This document shows positions 823 to 15,702 of a stretch of 64,000 nt of DNA, in pieces; the stretch's first letter is position 1; each line of letters opens with the position of its first letter. The DNA is taken from assembly GCA_001574975.1 (NCBI GenBank), contig KQ965837.1, positions 62,001 through 126,000 on the forward strand, given 5' to 3'. Below the pieces are notes generated by a model that was not told the origin of the DNA, searched no databases, and saw only the letters and a list, made by a program, of their open reading frames with translations. The stretch is from Gonapodya prolifera JEL478 (lineage: Eukaryota; Monoblepharomycota; Monoblepharidomycetes; Monoblepharidales; Gonapodyaceae). Position numbers and translations under genes: made by a program.

Positions 823-3800
823 ATGAAGCGCAGCGTTTTGGTCGGACTGGTGTTGGGCTGGATTGGTGTCGCGGGATGTGGTGCGGCCAAGGCTTTCACC
901 CCCCTGGAACAGGAACAGGAACAGGTCGGGATGAACTCGGTGCAGCGTCTTGGTTGGGCATTAGAGCGATCGCTGGTGGAGGGACGAGAGGGACGGATGG
1001 TCCGGAGAGCGCCTCCCAGCAATGGTGCTGTTCTTCTGCTACTTGTCCCCAGCGGTGTCGATCTCACCCACGTTTTCCGTCTCTCCCGCGGACCCGGCGA
1101 CATCTGTCGACGCTTGCCACATGCTGTAGCTACGTCGGTGTGCCCGTCCGACTTGACCTTGTGCGCGACAGGGTGTGCGAGACTGAGTACGGATATCTAT
1201 CATTGCGGGTGAGTGTTCACGCCATAGTCAGACCGACTGGGTTTGAGGTGGAGGGGAGGCACTGTCGCGGAAGCCGAAGCACGGACATCTCACTGTCCAT
1301 TGGGCGGGAGGGTTGCAGGACGAGACAATTCCCATACATTTCACACATGTAATTCACATCCCGCACGAGGAATGCTTCCCCCGTATTGTCAATGCACCAC
1401 CTCACCCCAAAACGTCGTTTCTAACCCCACCCGCCTCCCCAGATCATGCGACAACGTCTGCTCCTCGGGCGTCGCCCAAGCCACCGACTACTGCATATCC
1501 GGCCGCTGCGAGTTCGCCTGCGACCCGGGACGGTCCGCCATCTCGTGCCCGGACCGGTTCATGTGCCTCGGCCCCAACGACGGGTGCCCCTCGACCGACA
1601 CCAACGGAACATCGAAAATCACCGCGCCACCACCCCTCAACTCCACCCGCGCAGCCGTCAACTCACCCAACGGCACCGTGTTCGCACTGGTGCTCCTCCG
1701 CGACCCGACGCGGTCGCTTGTGTGCAACCCGGACGGGTGCAACGCGCCCCAACTACCGACGCCGCAGACATACTTTATGAACACGTGCAGCGACTCCGCA
1801 TGCAGCGCATCGCAGATCCGGTTCTCGAGCTCCCCCACGCTGTGTCTTGCTGCTTCCGATGATGGGGATCTTGAGGCCGAAGGGTGCATCAACGATGGGA
1901 CCACCCCTGGGGCGATGGATAACCTCACGCAGGAGAGGCGCAAGAGGCAGATTTGGAAGATGGAGGTGGATACGTTGGGGTATAGCGGGACGGTGATTTA
2001 TAGTATTGCGTTTAAAGGGTCCGACGCGTCGTGCGTGGGTCAGAATTTGACTGTGAGTGGAGCAGTGGTTTTCATCCTGCAAGTCAAGAATCCTCATTCA
2101 AAATGCTCCTACAAAATCCGCATCTCCCTTACAACGAACTTGACGTTTTATCAGGCCGCCCCGGACCACATCGATATCGGAAGCTGTCACAAAAACACTG
2201 CCCTCTGGTTCACAATCTCCCCTGCGGACAAGAACTTCTTCGCGAACATCGTGGGGCCTGCCCCCCCCCCACCGGCTGACCCCGTGTTGGCCTCTAAGGC
2301 GGACACGGTTCCTACGCGACCCGATACACCTATCATCGCCATCGCGAGCAGCGCAGGCGCTGTCGTGGCGGTGGCGGGTGCGGCGCTCGGATACTTGTAC
2401 TGGGCAAGAACCAAAAAGCGTCGCAGTAAGGACGATGACGACGATAGCTTCGAAAACACGTTCGACGATATGGCGGGAATTGTGGCGAAGAAAACAGTGT
2501 CGGAGCGGCGCAGTGTGGAGAGTTCGAGAACCGCACATTCCAGGCGGTCGGAACTGTCTCGACGGGATTCTGCGAGGATGTCCCGTGGTATCGTCAGCGA
2601 CGCGCTCAGTTCGCCAGCGCTGTCGAGGACGTTCCAAAACCTGTCCCATTCGCCAACCAATCCTCGGCATCTCGTCACAAACCTCGATACCCCCACCTCC
2701 ACTGCTCCACGCACAGGCTTCAACAGCCCCCGGATCTCGCTTTCGGCAACACCGCGACTCCAGAGTCTCATTCGATCACGAGGGTCCCAGTTGGGATCAG
2801 GCGCCGTTGGAAGCGGCGCGATTCAACGACCTCTTCGAGCACTGAGCGAGGCCATTCTGAGTGTTCCAGAGGATGCGGAAGAGGGTGCTCCCGTAGTGAG
2901 TGGACTGGATACGGTTCAACTACCACGACGTGAGGTCCAAGAACCCGATGGGGGGATCGTCGGAAACATCAACCCTGTGAGTCATGTCAGTCTCAGTTTC
3001 ACAGTGTTTGTGATTGCTTACATTGCGGCGGTAGTTCTATCTGGCCCTTGGTGGACATCCCCTGTCTTCTGAGCCGGTGGTCGTCAACCGCATTCTCGTA
3101 GCGATTTCGGACTTTGCAGCCACGCTTACGGATGAATTGGATATGGTCGAAGGGTCGGCGTATCTCGTCGAGTTGCTCTGGGCTGATGGGGTAAGTGTTT
3201 ATAGAACCATAAACCCAGTGTTTTGTGGTATTGAGTGACATCATTCGGTTGATAAATTTGTCCCCTTTCCGTTTCCGTGGCGCTTAGTGGTCATATGGTA
3301 AGTAAAGATCATTGTATGAGCGCATTGACTATTCTAACTCAGCAATGTCGTACCCAGCTCGAAATATTACAACCGGTGCCTCTGGCTATGTGCCAATCGT
3401 CGGACTCACGAGTGGCCCTGACCCAAGTGCGCTCCCCGACGTTGGTGGACCTCATGGTATGGAAGTGGATGTCGGTGGACCTCGAGGGATGGAGCAGCGC
3501 TTGTCGACACGGAGGCTGACCGAGGGCCAAATGCGATCTTCATGGCGGGGAGGGCCAAGTGAAGTGAGAGCGGATGTCGAGCCAACGCGATTGGATTTCA
3601 CAGGACGACCATCGACCTCTGCTGGATTTCCATCTGGGGCTCGTGAAGATGGCGTTGGGGCGCAACCAGACGATGTACCACATCCAAGGACGGGCTCGGG
3701 CTCGCAGCGAATGAGATGGGAGAGTGCATCAAGATCGTCCCGGCGATCTTCTGCAATGCATGTCGCGACGGAGTCGATTCATGATAGGGAGCCTCGCCTG

Positions 3801-4600
3801 TCAGGTCCTGTCGAATCAACCCACCACCGCATAAATTCTATTGATGTCAGCTCTCCGAAAGCCTCCGGTCATGTAAGACAAAATGACTCGAGCTCTTCTT
3901 TCACTTCTCGAACGGCTGGCAGCAGCTCTTCGTCATCTGGTCCTGGTCGACCATCGCCGCACAATCGAAGCGGATCGTCTGCGGGAATGGCCGATCCAAA
4001 TGCCTCCAACAACAATACCCCTTCTTCTATTCACGAGGTTATGCACATCTTTACACAGTTGGAGACTGAGTCTACGTCTGGGAGCACACGAGTTGCGCGG
4101 TCGGGATCTGACCAAGTTCTTGGAGAGTCCAGGGAGCGAGGTCCTGCACACCGGAGCAGCTCTGTTGGTCCCGAGAGAAGATCAAGTCGCTCGCCACGAA
4201 GTGAGGGAGAGTTTTCTCCGAATGGAGGGCAAGGTGGCAGATCAGGAGCCGGGAGTCAGGGTCGCGGTTCGAGGCTTTTGAGGGCAGCGTCGAATGGGTC
4301 GACTTTTTCAATGAGATCCAGGACAACCAATCTCGACGGTGTTGAAGGTATGTGTGCTTTAGGGATTAGGCAAGTCGGTGATGCCAACCTGACTCGTGTT
4401 GCTTGCGACAGTGAACCTGGAGACTTTGGATCAACTACTTGTCGGGCGGCACATTACGCGAGAGGTGAGTAATTTTCCTTGTAATTCTGTCTTTTGGTTT
4501 CAATTTCAAAAGTTGACCGTTTGGTCCGGCTTAGGCGTACCTCGTTCTTCGGAGTCGACTTGCGAATGGAAGCAGAATGGTGGCAGTGCCATCGGTGTAA
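823..4600 (+). CDS. Transmembrane SH3 receptor-like protein, copy 1
   Basis: I do not recognise a named family. The exon chain inferred by aligning with the two downstream paralogues is 823-865, 1130-1208, 1443-2064, 2155-2976, 3035-3190, 3288-3297, 3358-4347, 4412-4464 and 4535-4600. It closes in frame to 946 codons. Order of parts: signal peptide (MKRSVLVGLVLGWIG), a Cys-rich ectodomain with repeated CxxxC patterns, one membrane helix near residues 307-329 followed by a KKRR stop-transfer, a Ser/Arg-rich cytosolic segment, an SH3 domain near 535-600 (TDELDMVEGSAY, then LLWADGW and GASGYVP), a second Ser-rich region, and a C-terminal motif VGRHITRE followed by AYLVLR. Introns 866-1129 and 2065-2154 are multiples of three without stops, so they could be retained. 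The first has a weak gtgtcg donor and is placed by homology. A signalling receptor or scaffold role is inference from the architecture. Confidence 0.82.
3288..3297 (+). other. 10-nt microexon of SH3 domain, copy 1
   Basis: Ten bases (TGGTCATATG) lie between tag and gtaagt. They supply W-S-Y plus the first base of the next codon, completing the conserved second Trp of the SH3 fold. The preceding exon ends in phase 0 and the next exon starts with two bases of a codon, so skipping these 10 bases would shift the frame. Confidence 0.85.
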
Positions 4601-4864
4601 TTATTCCGTAATTTAAGAAACCATCAGGTTTCCATTTCTTGTTACGCATCAAATTGTCAATTTGAGTTGTTGCCAACCATAAGCTTATTCTGGCGTCTCA
4701 AATTGGTTTGAAATGGAAAGGGGATTGTCCGGAACTGTCACCTGTTCATTAGGTAGGTATATTTGTTTTGTGTGGCGTCCGGAATCTGGCCTCGGTCGGT
4801 GAGTTGATCGCGAGGAACCCCCTTAAACGAAAACAGTTCTCCGTCATTTTCGTCCCATGTCACG

Positions 4865-7800
4865 ATGCGGACGTGGAGATACTATTTCTCGTTGATTAGT
4901 GTTTTTGGTGAGAAATCGCCTGAGACCGGTGGCGTGGCGACGTGCGAGCCCTGGAACTTCGTTTGCTCACGGGATTCCCATCGTCTCCCCAGTGTTCGTA
5001 GCAATCGCATCTGTCGTACTTTCCAGTCATTTTACGCACGCCCTACGTATGTTCGATTTTGTGGTCGCCGCTGGTATTGAAAAACCTCATTGCATCCTGG
5101 AATTGTATCACGTCCAGCGCAAATTTTGGACCATCACCTGCTACCCTCAAAAGAATTATTCTATCATAAATTCAAAAGGCAGAACGGAGGGTCGACTGCT
5201 GGTACCGTACTGTTGCCATGGTTAAAGAAAACTTCCGACACCGAGTACTCCACCCCTCAGGAGGCTGTTCCGATGGTTTCTCCCTCTGCGAGGCTAGCTG
5301 CTCAAACCTGCTGACCAATGCCACGAACTGCGGGTGTGTGGCTTTCTCTCTAGCTGCCTGTCATGATTTTTAACGGCCTCGGGCAACCGGTTCCGACAAT
5401 TTTTTAGAAAATGCGGCAATGCGTGTGCTCTGGTCAATGGGGGTGTGTCGTCTTGCCAATCAGGCCAGTGCGGAGCGAACTGCTCTGACGGCAAAGCTTC
5501 GTTGTACTGCGCTGGGGCTATGCTGTGTGCAACTGGTGCACCGAACTGCTCCTCTGCTGGTATACAAGGAACCATATCAGTTGTTGCTGGAGACATTCCG
5601 ACAGGATCACGTGGTCCTCCAGTTCCAAACGGATACGATGTGACCGGGGCTTCTTATCTGAGTACCATGGATTCTGCATCAGTTTCGAGCATAACTCTTC
5701 CTGCCTTTTCAATATCTCTATCACTTGATACGACCATGTTCCTTCGCTGCAACGCCACCACGTGCACTGTGGAGAACAACCGTACAAGTACTCCAACCTC
5801 ATTCCTTCTGGCGTGCCCACAAAATGCTATCTGTAACAAAAGCTATTATCACATACGCGATACGGAAACATCGCTGTGCCTGGGTACCACTGCAGGAGGA
5901 AAATTTGCTCAGCTCACTGAGTGTCGAGTTTTCAACCCTCAGACGGTCTATACCCCTCCTATAGTGACACAGATATGGAATTTGAGAGTTGACACAACTG
6001 GAGCTACCTTGACAATCGCGATGGATCCCGCGTTCAACTGCCTCCAGCCTTCCGTTGACTCGAACGGGAACCCCAATCTTGCTGTGGGTTTTCACAGTTC
6101 TAGAGATGAAAACGATCCCTTTCTTACCACATTTTGCATTTAAACAGCCAGGTGCAATTTTTTCTATGGGGAACTGCAGTCGAACAGCTGCCGTACTAAA
6201 TACTGTCATGTGAGTCTTTTGCATCAAAGCAAGCTTCGTAACCCTTTTGACTTGATCCCCTTATTTAAATCATCATTCAAGGGCACTGGCCACAATCCCA
6301 GGCCGAACCTCAAATGCAAATCCCACAAGCACTTCAAGTGCCTCTGACTCGAAACCAGGATCACCTGGCCCTGTGATTGGAGGAGCTGTTGCTGGTGCCC
6401 TTGGTGCTGTCTCTCTTCTCTCCTCTGCTTTCTACCTAATCTATCGCAGAAGAAAGTTGAGAAGCACAAAAAAGGCGAACCTATTGGTAGTTCCAAGTCT
6501 TGGCCCAAAGGAGGACTCTGCTCGCGATCCTGGATCATATTTGGGCGGTGATGCTGGATCTCTGGGCACAGATGAGGATATTAAGGTTCCCAAACTTCCG
6601 AAGAGTATTCTTTCAGAAATACCTAGCTCCCTCATCAGTGCTGGAGTATCCGCTGGCGTGGATGAAGAAGGTGGTGCTCGTTCAATATCAATTGGAACTG
6701 CTACTGAGGACCTGTCCCAAAGGCTGCACAGAAACCGCGCAACTCCGAGTATAATTCGGAGTGAAACAGACGGATCCATCACGGAAGGCTCTCGCACTGG
6801 TTTGGACTTTGGAACTGGGCGTGGGGGATCGGTACGTCAAGTGAAATCCTCCCTTTCCAGCGGACGCTATACTGCGCAGACATCAGAATCCAGGAAAGAT
6901 GGATCAAAACTAAGATCTTTTGATCGACCTCCCATGGGATCTACTGCTTCACTGTCCCAGAGCTCACGTTCCCGAATTGTTGACGCCACGTCAATCAGTC
7001 TTCCATCTGTCCACACGACTGAAATTCGATCTGAATCAGATGCGGTGATGTCGTTCTTAGGTCGCCCTGCCCTCAGCGAGCTTCTTCCGGGTCACGACTC
7101 CGAGCGTCTTGCCGAATTTAGAGAGGAATTGATGGAACTGCAGCAAAATATCGACCAAAGCACTGACATGAATACCAAGAGCCCTACGCAGTCCAAGCAG
7201 AGTGGAATTAAACCAGCTCTCTCACTCAGCCCTGGAGTGTCCCAAATTGTCACTAGCGATGAGAACGCTGATGCAGTCAGTCATTTCACGGCAGCTCCTT
7301 CTCTTCTAGAACACATTAATCCTGTGAGTTTATATGGGGGTGTTCCGCCAAGGACAATATTTATTCCATGCAGAGATTTCTAACTTGGTCATTTGTCCGT
7401 GCAGTTTTACCTTTCGCTCGGAGGCTCTCCTCTATCGCACGAACCGGTGGAAGTCAACCGCGTACTTGTGGCATCCTCAGACTACGTTCCAACGCTTACG
7501 GATGAGCTGGAGCTGGTGGAGGGGTCCGCGTATTATGTTGATTTGTTGTGGGCTGACGGAGTGAGTTTCATCGACATTTGCTTTCCACCAACAACTCGAC
7601 ATTCACGTGAAATTTTGTTTTTACAAGTGGTGCTACGGTACGTGGACTAAACAATGAGGTTTTTGTTGCCCGCCGTCAATAAAGTTCCAAACTAGGCCGT
7701 AATCTGAGCACTGGCATCGGTGGATACGCCCCAATCAAAGCTCTCCAAGCCCCAGCTGCGTCATTTGATCGCGAAGACAACAGTCTCCCCCAGTTCACAC

Positions 7801-8371
7801 CACCGTTACCACCGTCACTTTTGCCACCCGCGCCAAGTGCGCCGTTATCTGATGGTACTTCTGGTTTCCCCGATCCTCCCGCCAGTCCGCCGCAAGGTCT
7901 GGATGTTAATTTGAAGCCACCTTTAGCACCAACCTCTCCACCGACAAGTGCCACTGAGGCAAGTCGAGGCCACGCCAGCCCACTTCAGCTTCCGGAGCGC
8001 GGTCCAAGCAGACGTAGTAGCTCAGCGCGACCTGTTTCGTTGTTGTCCCGCGGTGATGCACCAGGATATGTTGGGACACCTGTGAACTCTGCGGAACAGA
8101 TTGTACCGCAAAATCTACAAAGCCTTGCAAGTACGTGTCTTTCACAAATGATAGTGTGAAAACCAATCCACTCATGCGATGATTCCTTATACTAATAGTA
8201 CCTAGGGATACTCTTGATCAGTTGCTGGTTGGTCGGCACATCACAAGAGAGGTGGGGAATCGCATGCTTTCGCTTTAAGAACTTCCTTCATGCATCCTCG
8301 GCTTAAATTAGGCTTACGTTCTTCTTCGAGCTGTATCGGAACAACCAGCATCAACGTCGAATGTGATCTAA
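4865..8371 (+). CDS. Transmembrane SH3 receptor-like protein, copy 2
   Basis: Tandem paralogue starting 264 bp after copy 1. Exons: 4865-4907, 5261-5333, 5408-6083, 6148-6209, 6282-7323, 7405-7560, 7628-7637, 7696-8130, 8199-8251 and 8312-8371. Together they give 869 residues in one frame. A short first exon encodes the signal peptide, the second a small Cys cluster (LCEASC), and the third most of the Cys-rich ectodomain. A membrane helix lies near residues 315-340 with a YRRRK stop-transfer. The cytosolic part has a FLGRPA motif, then an SH3 domain near 645-708 (TDELELVEGSAYYVDLLW, then STGIGGYAP). A proline-rich tail (PPLPPSLLPPAPS) could bind SH3 domains. The protein ends with VGRHITRE and AYVLLR. 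Exon phases match copies 1 and 3, which supports the model. No named family is recognised, and receptor or scaffold function is inferred. Confidence 0.85.
7628..7637 (+). other. 10-nt microexon of SH3 domain, copy 2
   Basis: Ten bases (TGGTGCTACG) between acaag and gtacgt, coding W-C-Y plus one base. Position, phase and length are identical to the microexons of copies 1 and 3. Confidence 0.85.
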
Positions 8372-8555
8372 CGATGAAGAAAAACAACCTTAAAATTATC
8401 AAGAAAATGGAATTTTCTCGTAGACAAGTCCTGAAATCTTCATGAGTTAAAGAGAGAGATGTCACTGGTTGCTTCCGAATTTCCGTTTTGGAGTAATTTC
8501 GTTGCGGTTTGTTGGGGAGCCCAGACCTGCCGAGACCGTCCCTGACTATCTCTTC

Positions 8556-11500
8556 ATGCGATGCCCCGGATATCTGCCGGTAGTCCTGCTTCTTTTACTT
8601 TTTGGTACGTGCTTTGCGACTCCTCTTTGGGGTGGGGCCTTCTGTCACGACTGTCGTCCACGCCCGCCTGCTCTCCCATCCGAAATGGCCGCAAACGTGA
8701 AACACCGAAGCTCGTAACGCTCCCATTTCGGTTGCCGTGAAGACTGGACCGTGGAAACATACCATCGAAGGCGCCAGTAAGTAGGAGTTATTAAGGGAAT
8801 CTGGAACACCTACTCACTCTCCGCATAGGCGTTCGCAGCTCTTTCGAACCGAGGGCTAACCGGTTAAGTCTGCAGTCCCCCTTGGTGCGGCGTCAGGACA
8901 GCAGAGAAACGATGGGTACGTGGAGCGAATGGAATATCATCGACGTGGTTCGAAACAGTAGAAATCTCTTCCAGGGAGTTGCTCTAATGGGCTTACTCTA
9001 TGCGGTAACACGTGTGTCGATTTGCTTACAAATGCGACCAGCTGTGGGTGAGTTATGAAGTTTCGAAAGTTCCCGGATAGATGGAGACACCGTCTGAAAC
9101 AATGGACGCCTTGGAATAAGGGCGTGCGACCATTTGTGCCCATCTATCGATTTTGGCAGCGCATTTTGTAGCTCTGGTCGGTGTACTGCTCGTTGCTCCG
9201 ACGCCCAACCGCCAGTATTCTGTGCTGGCACCCTGGTCTGTGCTTCCTCCGGCATTCCCAGCTGCTCAGGCACTATAGACAGTCCCATTGCTGTAACTGC
9301 AGGAGCCGGTGGCGGTGGCGGTCCCCCCGGTGGAGGCCCGGGCGGAGGCCCGCCAGGAGTTGATACGTCTGGCGCCTCGTACCTTGATATAATGCCCAAT
9401 GGGACTTCCACCATCCCGAACCAGACGGACACATCCTTCGCTATCTCGTCGCTGGTCTATCCTTCGCTTTCTTTGGCATGCAATGGCACGCAACCATGCT
9501 CCCTTGTCGCCCATGCGTCGACCATCCCCACGATGTTTCAACTTGCTTGTCCATTAAATGCGAGCTGCACAAAAGGCTTCTTTCAACTTCGCCGAATGAA
9601 TTCTAGCCAATGTCTTTCATCCGGTAGTCAAGGTAGCGCTGTTCAACTCACACAGTGTAGAGCCTTCAACCCTCAGGCGGCTGTGGGGACGGGTTCACCA
9701 ATCTTCACTCAGCTATGGAATTTTCAGCTTGATGAGCAAGGAGCAAGCACTACTGTTATAATGGATCCCCCCCAGAACTGTCTGCAGCCAACTGCCAATA
9801 CAAATGGAGATCCTGTTTTTGTTGTGAGTGTTCTATGGACTTAGGAAATTCCAAAACGAAACAAGCAACTCAGATAAAAATGGCAGCCGAATTCAAAAAT
9901 TGTAATGGGAAATTGTGGTCGAAGTGCAGCTGTATGGTCTACGGGGTGAGTTGATCGTGCTTAGAACATTCCAGATGCTTCACTGTTCTTGCGACGAAGT
10001 TCCTCATATCCTTGCTCCACCTCAGGCCGCTAAATTTTACTGCTCAGGCGCCCCCTCCCTTGTTATCGTTGTCGTCTTCAATTCCTACCGGGACCACAGG
10101 GGTTCAGTCGGCCAACAGCTCCGCAACCAACGCAGCTCAAGCAAACCAACCGTCTCCTTACCTCGTTGGTGGAGCTGTCGCGGGTGGGGTGTGCGTTGTT
10201 GGCCTCTTAATTGCAGCAGTTGCCATTTATGTTTTGAAGCGGAGGCGTCGGAAGCTGAAATCCGGTCAAGGGGCTTCGCATCATCTCGAACGCCCAGAGT
10301 CACAAGAGGATCTCATAAATGGAAATGGTGGTTTAGGGTCACGTCATCAAGGCTCTGCAAAGTTCAGACCTCGTGACGTGCACTTGGAATCAAACGCCAT
10401 CGTGGACAACTTACCCAATGATGCGAACACAAATTCATCATTTTTTAAGCAACGGTCACCGCATTCTGCTCTCACAGACTCCGCAGTTCTCGCACCAGAA
10501 CCTGCTCGAGTTGCTGGGACCAGTGATCCGGGCAACAGCCTTTCATCTCCACGTAACTCTTCCTTAAGGAGTTCTACGAATTCTGGAATCATATTACCAG
10601 CAACCTTGTTCAGAGGGCCTGATAGCATCACATCATCACCTCTCACTGAATCAGACTCTTCGATGGACCCTCATGTTGCCATGGAGCTTCGAGAACTTGC
10701 ACCCTCGAATGATTCTGGACGTTTGTCAAGCTCCCCTTACACGGCGAGTGAGCGCCGCACAACAAAAACGCTCGACTCACATTCCACGAATGTCGCGCGT
10801 CATATGGAGGTGGAGCTACTGATGAAGACGTTACCCTCTCTGGCTCTTTCGCATGCTCCGACTGCAGGACCGATGTCCTTGAATCCTTATTCTTCCTCCT
10901 ACACAACATCAAGCAGGCTTGAGTCAGCTGCCCTCTCTTTCTTGGGCAGACCAGCACCAAGCGACCTCAGATCGGAATTTTCTGGTACAATGCATTCAGA
11001 GGTGAACTCTTTGGTTAAAAGCGGAATTGCGGGGACGAGTCGTCGTGAATCACAAATGATGAGTCCGCGAGAAGATACGAGTCAAACAGACCAGACAGTG
11101 TGGCAAAGCGGGCCAACCACCCCAGACTACTCACCCATCCGAGGCGGACATGATGATATGGAAGTGCAGAGCCAATTTGCAGGGGCGCCGTCGATACTGC
11201 AGAACATCAACCCGGTGAGTGAATGTGTCACAACGTAGATCTTCTCCATCGGTAAATAATGCGTTCCCATTGTTCAGTTCTACCTCTCGCTTGGAGGCAG
11301 ACCACTTTCCAATGAGCCCGTGGAGGTCAATCGCGTACTTGTAGCATCTGCGGACTTCGCACCGACACTCACTGACGAGCTTGAATTGGTACAAGGCTCC
11401 GCATATTATATTGATTTGCTTTGGGCAGATGGGGTAAGCTGCCGACGTTCAATCGTTGCGGATGTTCAGTTTTACTTATGCCACTTAAAACTTTCACGAC

Positions 11501-12290
11501 ATATCAATGATGGTAGTGGTTCTATGGTGAGTGTCGTGGAACGTGATCGATCTATGTACTGTATTGATAAATGAATTGCTTCCGTTTTAAGGTCGAAACC
11601 TGAGCACTGGAAGTGCAGGCTACGCTCCCGCAGTCGCTCTTCAAGCAGCAGCTGCTTCCTTTGTCCAGGAGCGGGGCGATCTTCCACGATTCAGTCTTCC
11701 TATTCCTGATCGAGACTTACCCGAACGCTCGACAACCCAACCACCCCTGAGTCCAAGGAGTGCGCTGACTGAAGGCCTCTCCGTCCCGGTTCCTCCTTCC
11801 GACATGCCTCCCCCTGTTGGTGATATGCCTCCCCCAATCTCCCCCGTGTCACCGGTCATTGGTGGAGGAACTAGCTTACTTCCATCCGAGATTCCCGAGC
11901 GAGGTCCTAGCAAACTCCCTCGGTATGGTGCGGCATCAATTTTATCACATACCAGAGTTCAGACAAGTACCAGCGGTATGAAGGACCTCAAGTTTGGAGG
12001 GGTCTCATCCACGGATCTTCAAGGAGTGTCCAGTAAGCTTAATTGCAATCGAGCATCAAGGCTGCATGTTGATTGACATCTATTTATTTTTTTTGTAGTC
12101 CCAAAGGATACTCTGGATCAACTACTTGTCGGTCGTCACATAACTCGCGAGGTTTGGACACTCCTTACGTTGGAGACAACCTTTCGTGTTCTGATTTCTG
12201 TGTTTTAATGACTGTCAGGCTTACGTACTCCTTCGCGCAGTTACGGAGCGCTCAGGTTCCTTCTCTAATAGGTCTGGATCCTTTTCGTGA
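8556..12290 (+). CDS. Transmembrane SH3 receptor-like protein, copy 3
   Basis: Third tandem member, 184 bp after copy 2. Exons: 8556-8604, 8975-9047, 9121-9823, 9887-9945, 10026-11214, 11278-11433, 11517-11526, 11592-12032, 12099-12151 and 12219-12290. They close to 934 residues. The signal peptide contains PVVLLLLLF. The ectodomain keeps the Cys spacing of its paralogues and uniquely carries a Gly/Pro linker (GGGGGPPGGGPGGGPPG). A membrane helix lies near 339-365 with a KRRRRK stop-transfer. The cytosolic region is very Ser-rich and has the shared FLGRPA motif. The SH3 domain near 704-768 includes TDELELVQGSAYYIDLLW. It is followed by a PPPVGDMPPPISP stretch, PERGPSK and the conserved VGRHITRE / AYVLLR tail. 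The SH3 exon (156 nt) and the microexon (10 nt) have exactly the lengths found in the other copies. Confidence 0.85.
11517..11526 (+). other. 10-nt microexon of SH3 domain, copy 3
   Basis: Ten bases (TGGTTCTATG) between gtag and gtgagt, coding W-F-Y plus one base. This is the third instance of the same microexon. Confidence 0.85.
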
Positions 12291-12723: not shown

Positions 12724-13887
12724 TCAGATTACGAGTTGGAAAAAGCTCACCTGTATGTCCACCACAATATGCTCCAAAATCTTTCCCTCCCCATCAAACT
12801 TGTACACTGATAATCCCTCGTAGGTTGCGTGTACAACCGCATCCGGATTTATAGCCCCAACGACGATTGAATGTCGAGGTGTACCTTCCAAAATCCACCG
12901 AGCGAGAATGTAAATATCCTCGACTTCGCCTTCGCTAGCTGCAGCCGAAGGGGCTTTGTCTCCGCCTGTGCCCCCAACCATTCCCATTTCCTGCATCGCC
13001 CGCAGCTCCTCCCCACGGACCTGCTGCAGCTTCACCACGTCGTACGTCGGGTTGGCGTACCACAGCTTTACTACGGCTCGAAACGTTTCCACGAACGCCT
13101 TGTACGCGGCGTGACCGCTGATTGTGAGGCGGGAGTGGACGGGCTCTCGAAGCCGAACGTTCTGGGCGTAAATTGTCGTGTCGCTAAGTCCCTCGGCAAG
13201 AAAGTTGTGGAGGTCGTCGCGAAGCACGCAAATGGCACGCCCGATGTTGAGAATACGGTCTGGTGGTGGTTTGGAGGCTCCATTTGGGGTTGGGCCCGGA
13301 GTTGTTGCATCCTCTGGGCCGTTCCGGGCAGGTGTCCGGTCGAAAAGAAGTTTACCTGCTATAAAGTCACCTGCCAAAAGCTGTGCCGGGATTGGAGTCT
13401 CGGATTCTTTTGATGCGGATTGGGTGGATGAAACGTCGAGGGGTGGAGAGTCGAAGGAGATGCCGGTTTGGTGGCGACTAATACTCTGATACTGGCTTTG
13501 GGAAGGATCTGAAATGTTTTTCGAGTGCGCATGGAGCTCCCATGGCAGAAAGCCGGAAGGTTGAACGTTTGGTGAACGGTGCTCCACGTCGTCCGTCCGC
13601 GATGCACTGATAGGTTTTCCACCTCTGTGTGAAATCAGAGGCAGTTTGAGTATCGCATTACTCGCGCTTGACACAATCCTGGGCGTGATTCCTCCAAAAT
13701 GGGTCTGTATGCTCGACGATGCCGATTGGTGAGTTGAATATTTCTCCACACGAGTCATTCTCTTTCCAGCGACGCTACTATCCTCTGACATCGCGCACGG
13801 GCGCATATTTCCGTGTCGAAATTCTGAGCTGGCCCTCGAGAGCCCGTGAAGTGACGTGGGGAAACCTTTGATCGTGCTTCGGGACAT
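12724..13887 (-). CDS. SnoaL-like / DUF2358-type protein
   Basis: Single open frame of 387 codons. The first 200 residues are Ser/Pro-rich and low in complexity, so the true start could be internal or further upstream. The C-terminal half looks like the NTF2/SnoaL-like DUF2358 family of plants and fungi: ICVLRDDLHNFL, then a short strand-rich segment with LREPVHS, then ARWILEGTPR and finally YKFDGEGKILEHIVVDI. Those proteins have a small cone-shaped fold and no agreed reaction. The last residues are uncertain. The frame runs through a gtgagc right after the EHIVVDIQ segment, which may be a real donor leading to a tiny last exon near 12640. It is convergent with the SH3 gene cluster. Confidence 0.62.
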   Translation of the reverse strand: MSRSTIKGFPTSLHGLSRASSEFRHGNMRPCAMSEDSSVAGKRMTRVEKYSTHQSASSSIQTHFGGITPRIVSSASNAILKLPLISHRGGKPISASRTDDVEHRSPNVQPSGFLPWELHAHSKNISDPSQSQYQSISRHQTGISFDSPPLDVSSTQSASKESETPIPAQLLAGDFIAGKLLFDRTPARNGPEDATTPGPTPNGASKPPPDRILNIGRAICVLRDDLHNFLAEGLSDTTIYAQNVRLREPVHSRLTISGHAAYKAFVETFRAVVKLWYANPTYDVVKLQQVRGEELRAMQEMGMVGGTGGDKAPSAAASEGEVEDIYILARWILEGTPRHSIVVGAINPDAVVHATYEGLSVYKFDGEGKILEHIVVDIQVSFFQLVI

Positions 13888-15702
13888 TTTCGTGGAGCTT
13901 TGGGAGGATGGGCGTCAAAATGAAAGCCAAAGTGATCATCCAAAAGTTTGCAGGAGCGACCCGCGTCGTTTGATGCCCGCGATTTCCGCGTGTCTTGGTC
14001 AAGAAGGAAAGGACCGAACCTGACCAACACGTCACGGCGACAAAAGGATTCCACCGAAAATCAATTCGCAGAACTCGGTTGGCATTCATGTAATAGCAGT
14101 TCCGGATATCTGTAATAATCTTCTGTGTGTCTCTGACTCCATGAAAATCTGGTTCTCGCGTCCACCCACTTTGTCACCAGAATCTTTGAATTTTGGTAGT
14201 AAAGAGTTCGACCTTGTGGGTCCTCTCCGCGCAGAATTAGTCGCCGGAATTTTGGCAACAGCCCTCCAGAGAGCAAGAATCGAGTTTAAGTTGTAAGTAG
14301 CTTCCGACCATGGCACTTATGAGGAAGGCTGACAAACGGAAACGAGATTCGGCTTTCGAGGTGGGATGAATCCATTGGGTGGACTGCCAGATGAATTTCA
14401 AACACCAGCCTTTATGTTGTGACAGCAGTGGAGTAACGTTCCATGCAGGCATCAACCCGACAAATATGTCATTGTTAGATAACAGCAACGAGCGGGCGAC
14501 CAATACAGCCAGCGCTTGGGACCAGGAATTCCAAACTTAAACACTCTCGTCAATGGATATTCTTGCCGTCTGCCCACACCGTGCTGTACTCCAGAACCAC
14601 CAACTCACTACATTATCTGGCATTCAGCCATTTAGAAGAAAAACGACAATCGAACGCAAGAATTCGATCAACGCTTTCGTATCCAATTCGTGAATATTGA
14701 TCGATACCATCACAGAAAACATTATTATGAGGGTTTTGATGCGAAATTGATTTGAGAAAGCAACGCGATGCACCAAAAAGGTTCCGGGCGACACAAGCGG
14801 AAGCAAAAAAAAAAAAGTAAAGCGCAAAAGAGTCTCATACTCAGCACTCTCGAAATCACCCGAAGGACCGGTGCATGGCAACGACGTATCAAGCGGTGGG
14901 AACTCACCAGAGACTCCCGAGGCTCCCTTAACCGTGGGACGACCACGCCGCCAATTTAAACCTCCCCGACCCCAGAACGTGCAAATCGGTCGGCCGCAGT
15001 TCACTTCTCCACACTTGGCTCCGCAGACAAATACACTGGCACCAAGTGCCACCTCAATTCCATTTCTCCCAAGTTTCGCCCTCAATCCTGCCTTCAACTC
15101 ACACTTGGAATGCGGCAGCGCACTGAAGGAATATACCGTGCTGGTCTCTCTTGGGCATGAATCGTCAGAAACTCCCTGGAGATACATACTCGACTTGTCA
15201 CCCATCGGACGATCGTTCGAAGCATTCCGCGTCTTAGTGGATATTTGAAACCAGTAAATATCGTGGCGGTTACCTGGAGTGGTAAAAATTTCAAACAGGG
15301 TGTCGATTGGGTGTCTGTCTTCGTTGCCGGAGGGGCTGCCTTGTGGACCTGGTCTATGTTGCGATGAATCAACCGTGACCTACACAGTTATGAGCTTGAG
15401 TCATTCGTTTTCAAAACTCCTCTGTGCTACAATGGGCTCTTTTTGCTGCGTGGATTATGGTAGTGTCGAAATCTCACCAAGTGCGAGTAAACACCGACTT
15501 TTGAATCTCCTTGATGGCACACCGAACCGATTCAGGAGCGCAAGGGTGATGACACGTTTCAGATCCGACATGCTTTTTCTTCTGAAAGCGTAACATGCCA
15601 AGAAATGCAATCTCTTATTGCTGCCTCGCATGGTTATACACAAACACACCGCCCGACACCTCGTTAAGAATAAACGCTTCTTCTCACACACCGACACGAC
15701 GT
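13888..15702. other. Unassigned 1.8-kb stretch
   Basis: No firm gene. The minus strand carries hydrophobic open fragments just upstream of 13887 that might be 5' exons of the SnoaL-like gene, but I could not join them. A 125-codon plus-strand frame at 14871-15248 is Ser/Pro-rich like real exons of this genome, yet it overlaps a longer minus frame (14624-15205) and neither shows a domain. The 3' region of SDH1 starts at the right end. Confidence 0.35.

Follow-up and report, generated by a model that had tools for sequence, protein, structure and literature searches.

The window analysed here, 64,000 nucleotides (nt) of contig C107 (C107:62001-126000), carries three adjacent genes on the same strand, which we call g1, g2 and g3. 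They occupy positions 823-12290, from the g1 ATG to the g3 stop. An earlier note made from the DNA letters had described them as a tandem family of secreted-ectodomain, transmembrane and SH3 proteins, and the limits it gave proved exact. Gene models were spliced by hand using splice signals and paralogue alignment, and the spliced translations of g1, g2 and g3 contain no internal stops. A shared predicted architecture, consisting of a Cys-rich ectodomain, one membrane helix, a Ser-rich linker, an SH3 domain and a conserved tail, is well supported by these models. The features are as follows, E values being those of Pfam families.

823-4600, plus strand: g1, 8 exons, 1030 amino acids; coding exons 823-1208, 1443-2052, 2155-2976, 3035-3190, 3288-3297, 3358-4347, 4412-4464, 4535-4600
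1443-2331, plus strand: g1 predicted Cys-rich ectodomain; lectin-like part here, STIG1-like part starting in exon 1
2332-2405, plus strand: g1 predicted membrane helix, hydropathy 2.21; found as locus L007 in the helix scan
3035-3407, plus strand: g1 SH3 (exon, 10-nt micro-exon and start of the next exon); SH3_1 E 0.00041, below cut-off
4412-4600, plus strand: g1 conserved tail
4865-8371, plus strand: g2, 11 exons, 883 amino acids; coding exons 4865-4907, 5179-5220, 5261-5333, 5408-6083, 6148-6209, 6282-7323, 7405-7560, 7628-7637, 7696-8130, 8199-8251, 8312-8371
5261-6209, plus strand: g2 predicted Cys-rich ectodomain; lectin-like half with C..C..Q.W pattern, STIG1-like half in exon 3 and the start of exon 4 by alignment with g1
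6373-6444, plus strand: g2 predicted membrane helix, hydropathy 1.86; under the 2.0 limit of the helix scan and so missed there
7405-7745, plus strand: g2 SH3; SH3_9 E 0.0035 and SH3_1 E 0.029, both below cut-off
8199-8371, plus strand: g2 conserved tail
8556-12290, plus strand: g3, 11 exons, 963 amino acids; coding exons 8556-8604, 8829-8915, 8975-9047, 9121-9823, 9887-9945, 10026-11214, 11278-11433, 11517-11526, 11592-12032, 12099-12151, 12219-12290
8975-9945, plus strand: g3 predicted Cys-rich ectodomain, placed by alignments
10159-10236, plus strand: g3 predicted membrane helix, hydropathy 2.58; found as locus L003 in the helix scan
11278-11640, plus strand: g3 SH3; Pfam match below cut-off, together with similarity to SH3 loci of the genome
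12099-12290, plus strand: g3 conserved tail

Intron phases are identical in g2 and g3 (1,1,2,0,2,0,0,1,1,0), with a phase-0 intron directly before the SH3 exon, and the seven introns of g1 correspond in position and phase to introns 3, 4, 6, 7, 8, 9 and 10 of the other two genes. The common exon order and phases that had been claimed for the triplet therefore hold exactly for g2 and g3, whereas g1 lacks introns 1, 2 and 5. A 10-nt micro-exon is situated within the SH3 domain of each gene, at 3288-3297 (g1), 7628-7637 (g2) and 11517-11526 (g3). The intron that separates the helix-coding exon from the SH3 exon is 58, 81 and 63 nt long in g1, g2 and g3, respectively, which leaves no space for separate ectodomain and SH3 transcripts. 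Weak splice sites are the poor donor of g2 intron 2 (GTTAAA) and the donor of g3 intron 10 (GTTTGG).

The genome searched (47.6 Mb, 207 contigs) contains IFT46 and chitin synthase matches and thus most likely belongs to a flagellated chitinous fungus. A second contig, C55, carries the same g1-g3 triplet, and non-family DNA at 12800-13900 of the window is also present on C55 at 85% identity, so that C55 represents either a haplotype or a homeologue of the region. Close SH3 loci number eight, four on each contig. A fourth copy, g4, lies downstream and outside the window, with its SH3 at C107:133323, 59 kb past g3 and 7.3 kb past the window end, and a frame upstream of this SH3 shares 45% identity with the g1 ectodomain across 47 residues. 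A query with the g3 ectodomain, its glycine-rich stretch omitted, returned 10 matches, only in the C107 and C55 clusters. The shared architecture and tandem arrangement of the three genes are thus borne out by the spliced models, the alignment and the C55 triplet.

The three genes are under purifying selection between the two homologous contigs, the ratio of nonsynonymous to synonymous substitution rates (dN/dS) over the whole coding region being 0.15 (1028 codons), 0.18 and 0.21 in g1, g2 and g3, respectively. In the same gene order, dN/dS is 0.02, 0.03 and 0.10 in the SH3, 0.06, 0.15 and 0.11 in the main ectodomain exon, 0.07, 0.27 and 0.27 in the helix and Ser-rich exon, 0.36, 0.16 and 0.12 in the exon after the SH3, and 0.00 (dN 0, 38 codons), 0.05 and 0.23 in the tail. 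GT and AG are preserved on C55 at the splice sites covered, and divergence is usually higher in introns than in exons, with g3 introns 2 and 10 as exceptions. Combined with the whole-gene dN/dS values, this indicates that the gene structures are not due to chance. A version of g2 exons 2-3 with no intron was dropped, as indels in the C55 copy there would break the frame. In g1, g2 and g3 alike, the 10-nt micro-exon has the same sequence on C107 as on C55 (100% identity). Collinear stretches of the two contigs are ∼85-90% identical, as expected for diverged haplotypes or a hybrid or duplicated genome; unlike these doubled stretches, IFT46 was matched at one place only. On the minus strand at 12724-13914 of the window, a neighbouring frame contains DUF2358 (E 1.2e-13), and its DNA is conserved on C55.

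Leader and helix strength was scored as the hydropathy of protein windows. A hydrophobic leader is clear in g1 (1.94) and g3 (1.56) but weak in g2 (0.73), so that the signal peptide proposed for all three proteins stands for two of them and is only putative in g2; g2 exon 1 and its donor are nevertheless retained on C55, as seen in a separate check of this region, which lies outside the main comparison. Besides the leader, each protein contains a single strongly hydrophobic stretch, scoring 2.21 in g1, 1.86 in g2 (its top window) and 2.58 in g3, in agreement with the one membrane helix originally described. This stretch is preceded by 391, 329 and 368 residues in g1, g2 and g3, respectively, and in g1 is followed by basic residues and then the Ser-rich linker. 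Conserved Cys spacing in the ectodomain was likewise upheld, as the three-way alignment contains 18 invariant cysteines.

Resemblance of the ectodomain to named families lies below the Pfam cut-offs. STIG1 (PF04885) matches g1 residues 105-154 with E 0.0033 and 18.3 bits against a cut-off of 24.1, and g3 with 8.2 bits (E 4.6), also below cut-off, while the Pfam scan of g2 matched no ectodomain family, STIG1 included. A STIG1 family search of the genome returned five weak matches, none above cut-off. Ricin_B_lectin (PF00652), a beta-trefoil family, is not listed for g1-g3 in the Pfam scan but is found in the ectodomains of two paralogous loci, L011 (E 0.0024, 18.5 bits) and L010 (E 0.0068, 17.0 bits), with a cut-off of 29. 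The L010 and L011 ectodomains can be aligned to the latter half of those of g1-g4, sharing the invariant pattern L.C....C, C, C, Q.W, and the columns constant in all nine alignment rows are L112, C114, C119, C157, C172, N176, Q188, W190 and T202 (g2 exon numbering). The ectodomain therefore appears weakly STIG1-like and, judged via distant paralogues, weakly ricin-B-like. We know of no case in which a lectin- or STIG1-type ectodomain is joined to a membrane helix and an SH3. Two of the five weak STIG1 genome matches, on C89 and C42, lie near SH3 loci L011 and L010.

Pfam SH3 families (SH3_1 or SH3_9) match all three genes below cut-off (E 0.0004-0.047), and SH3 identity therefore leans also on similarity to many genomic SH3 loci. 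Pairwise identities of the SH3 exons are 87, 75 and 73%, and when the g2 SH3 was searched against PDB sequences, the list was headed by SH3 proteins (best E 0.00038), Fus1 being absent among the best 60 of 79 matches. The SH3 of g1-g3 is without some of the aromatic residues that usually bind proline. C-terminal of the SH3 lie 165-352 residues, including the conserved tail, the core of which, TLDQLLVGRHITREAY, is identical in the three genes; the SH3 and conserved tail of the earlier description are thus retained. Three of six tails tested, all from paralogues, resemble SHOCT (PF09851) weakly and below cut-off (L018 E 0.0029, L011 0.0042, L013 0.051), the best score being 17.7 bits against a cut-off of 27. 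Ser makes up 15-17% of the inner parts.

The SH3 of Fus1 is described, in the excerpted parts of two reports, as having a Cys directly after the Trp and another Cys further along (PMC5823434) and a specificity profile that contains no proline (PMC2756588). By our mapping, the residue following the SH3 Trp (Fus1 position 37) is Ser, Cys and Phe in g1, g2 and g3, respectively; where Fus1 has its second Cys (position 54), the three carry Gly, Ala and Ala. The predicted likeness of the g1-g3 SH3 to that of Fus1 is thus partial.

The triplet is accompanied by a wider set of membrane-SH3 loci. An SH3 query of the genome gave 149 matches, a few of which are second exons of one gene, and 85 of the 149, a partial sample, were examined: the 14 first extracted, the next 44 (E no higher than 9.8e-4) and 27 weaker loci, namely 26 with frames of at least 250 amino acids (E 0.001-0.05) and C151:2927. 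Using a rule of hydropathy at least 2.0 followed by at least 3 basic residues within 1.5 kb upstream of the SH3, a membrane helix was detected at 32 of the 85 loci compared with 3 of 85 on the reverse strand, a count which is rough in both directions, since L068 looks false, real helices were missed in g2, its C55 partner, L037 and L075, and homologous pairs are counted twice. Helix and SH3 share one unbroken frame in L012, L018, L023, L032, L044, L062 and L065. A tail could be seen only where the sequence examined ran 1,000 nt or more past the SH3, as in 57 loci, the remaining 28 being too short; its profile scored 9 bits or more in 15 loci and in none on the reverse strand. These 15 are the g1-g4 pairs, L010/L011, L012, L018, L013/L019 and L039, in a search that is largely circular, as 13 of the 15 are training rows or near-copies; independent matches are confined to the fourth-copy pair L005/L006 (14.4 and 11.0 bits). 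The tail is also found under other ectodomains, ricin-like in L010/L011 and with weak leucine-rich repeats (LRRs) in L013/L019 and L039, and under those of L012 and L018. A reading by eye of the L018 and L044 ectodomains as polysaccharide deacetylase was dropped, having no Pfam support. Among scorable loci, a Cys comes directly after the SH3 Trp in 17 of 33 of the membrane class versus 5 of 41 others (Fisher p 0.0003), the classes comprising 41 membrane loci (8 unscorable, 10 assigned by hand) and 44 others (3 unscorable, helix-bearing L075 among them), with homologous pairs treated as independent.

Several members of this set carry LRRs. Pfam LRR families score above cut-off in L041 (LRR_4, E 1.1e-19), L057 and L075 (E 7.5e-11) and below it in L031, and at all four loci LRRs and a membrane helix are contained in one frame. 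The two clearest are

C77:218948-222791: L041, a single frame with leader, two LRR blocks and helix
C12:568573-570366: L075, LRR, helix and SH3

In both, the LRR-helix frame can be joined to the SH3 via a GT-AG intron entering at the same SH3 position, this intron being one of two (L041) or one of six (L075) phase-compatible candidates and picked as completing the SH3. L020 has one phase-compatible candidate, and a join of frame to SH3 by a single intron was not found in L031, L052 or L057. Further candidate loci with an LRR ectodomain, helix and SH3 are L020, L031 and L057. Neighbouring pairs of membrane-SH3 loci are located at C2:298125 and C2:300044 and at C3:658093 and C3:661609. Combined, these results support the view that g1-g3 form one local, tandemly arranged branch within a larger set of membrane-SH3 proteins whose ectodomains are exchangeable. 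The tandem expansion proposed in the earlier note thus describes the triplet correctly and is incomplete, given the fourth copy outside the window, the C55 set and the wider membrane-SH3 set with its LRR ectodomains.

Comparison with known systems places g1-g3 beside several families. Sho1 is likewise a fungal plasma-membrane protein with a cytoplasmic SH3 but has four helices and no large ectodomain, whereas g1-g3 have one helix. Budding yeast Fus1 is single-pass, with a Ser-rich inner linker, one SH3 and a Cys after the SH3 Trp that recurs in g2 and g4 as well as in many paralogues. Fus1 has a tiny ectodomain, in contrast to the large Cys-rich ectodomain, conserved post-SH3 tail and tandem multigene family seen here. 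The earlier remark that these proteins look like neither Sho1 nor Fus1 was therefore correct; g1-g3 are not Fus1 proper but may function in a Fus1-like manner. Wsc and Mid2 wall sensors share a secreted Cys- or Ser/Thr-rich ectodomain and one helix and have no SH3, and a WSC domain was not listed for g1-g3 in a Pfam scan to E 10, in which filters remove most matches above ∼0.1. Plant and oomycete LRR receptor-like proteins and kinases resemble L041, L057 and L075 in having LRRs and a helix in one frame, but an SH3 replaces the kinase in these loci and no LRR family is listed by Pfam for g1-g3. In a survey of 101 eukaryotes, 49 of them fungi, Soanes and Talbot (2010), in the excerpted part of their report, found LRR receptors almost wholly missing from fungi, with five genes in four species, one the chytrid Batrachochytrium dendrobatidis, and proposed that fungi may hold novel receptor classes (PMC2939053). 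Compared by description only, and on the same excerpt, those fungal receptors share LRRs and one helix with the present loci and differ in having no other functional domain (PMC2939053). SH3_1 is described as a promiscuous domain in fungi in a report whose excerpted part does not mention a membrane-SH3 family (PMC4102429).

The reading we favour, with a probability of roughly 0.55, is that these genes form a modular receptor-like set in which exchangeable ectodomains are placed on a partly Fus1-like SH3 module, probably linking surface or glycan recognition to the cortical machinery. Under this reading, g1-g3 would be single-pass surface proteins acting as sensors, the ectodomain binding a glycan or other cell-wall or surface ligand through a ricin-like fold. 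Clustering in the membrane would concentrate SH3 and tail, which could then recruit cortical partners such as actin, polarity proteins or a mitogen-activated protein (MAP) kinase scaffold. Fus1 and Sho1 in yeast have such partners. Tandem duplication may have generated several ligand specificities with one shared output. Ligand type, partners and signalling role are here inferred, as is the receptor or wall-sensor role suggested in the earlier note, the observation of which is confirmed and the interpretation partly supported.

A number of points weigh against this reading. No domain of g1-g3 attains its Pfam cut-off, and AlphaFold models of the g2 ectodomain exon and the L011 trefoil-like stretch gave predicted local distance difference test (pLDDT) values of 32.8 and 35.4 and no support for a trefoil. 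SHOCT was not matched by the g2 or g3 tails at E up to 10 and 5, respectively. Motifs of the form R[ST][ST]S[LVIMA], modelled on what we take to be the ligands of the Fus1 SH3, show no enrichment in the inner parts (1, 1 and 0 occurrences; shuffle P 0.14, 0.06 and 1.0), the first Fus1 Cys is present in g2 only and the second is not kept. To these are added the weak g2 leader, the partial sampling of SH3 matches, the circular tail search, the paired and hand-assigned loci in the Cys comparison, and L037 and L084, which were scored at another SH3 or start than listed.

A different account, which we consider unlikely, is that these proteins are pattern-recognition or self/non-self receptors in which the SH3 takes the role of plant and animal kinase or TIR domains. 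The LRR-membrane-SH3 genes L041 and L075 in the same genome, the tandem copies and the varied ectodomains suit it, but no downstream pathway is known and the low dN/dS of the ectodomain exons (0.06, 0.15 and 0.11) gives no sign of an arms race over this distance. It is similarly improbable that g1-g3 are structural wall anchors which grip a wall polymer outside and tie to cortical actin inside, with no signalling: the Cys-rich ectodomain with its weak lectin resemblance, the Ser-rich linker and the often cytoskeletal nature of SH3 domains fit an anchor, whereas copy number and ectodomain variety are better suited to recognition. We doubt, more strongly, that they belong to the Fus1 family proper, with an enlarged ectodomain and a mating or cell-fusion role in organising actin where cells fuse. 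The single helix, Ser-rich linker, one inner SH3 and partial Fus1-type binding surface are set against 329-391 residues of Cys-rich ectodomain before the helix, 165-352 residues with a conserved tail after the SH3, many paralogues and the absence of an equivalent of Fus1 Cys54. Fus1 itself has a limited reach across fungi, S. pombe being reported to be without it in the excerpted part of one paper (PMC4466140). A gene-model artefact, in which secreted Cys-rich genes and SH3 genes are separate or the copies decayed, is very improbable: although the models derive from sequence alone and include the two weak splice sites and weak g2 leader noted above, the introns are short and agree in phase, and the two homologous sets keep GT/AG and show purifying selection, all of which argues against it.

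A receptor-like set that combines an SH3 output with ectodomains of several kinds, LRR members among them, would provide a concrete and testable candidate for a novel fungal receptor class, and could make Fus1-type SH3 proteins part of a wider family of surface proteins. The architecture is not described in titles or abstracts among the matches listed from open-licence PMC literature; the family thus appears undescribed to that extent, as the earlier note had suspected, with weak STIG1, ricin-B and SHOCT relatives. Tentatively, and with considerable doubt, flagellated fungi may hold a large modular receptor repertoire in which one SH3 output, often with the tail, serves many ectodomains (lectin-like, LRR and others) as a fungal counterpart of plant receptor-like proteins and kinases, with g1-g4 as a lectin-like branch sensing foreign or self glycans. 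Such a repertoire, if real, would exist in a kingdom reported to be nearly without LRR receptors.

A second expanded SH3 type, to which many of the examined loci outside the membrane class seem to belong, is also present in the genome, apparently combining ankyrin or coiled-coil regions with an SH3 and without a helix, as judged by eye (L009, L015-L017, L026-L028, L035, L038, L042, L045, L047, L053, L059, L060 and others). A donor-like GT occurs exactly 6 nt past the SH3 Trp codon in 29 of the 44 non-membrane loci, and at least five loci of the second type (L078, L035, L038, L055 and L054) are clustered at C44:60902-103832.

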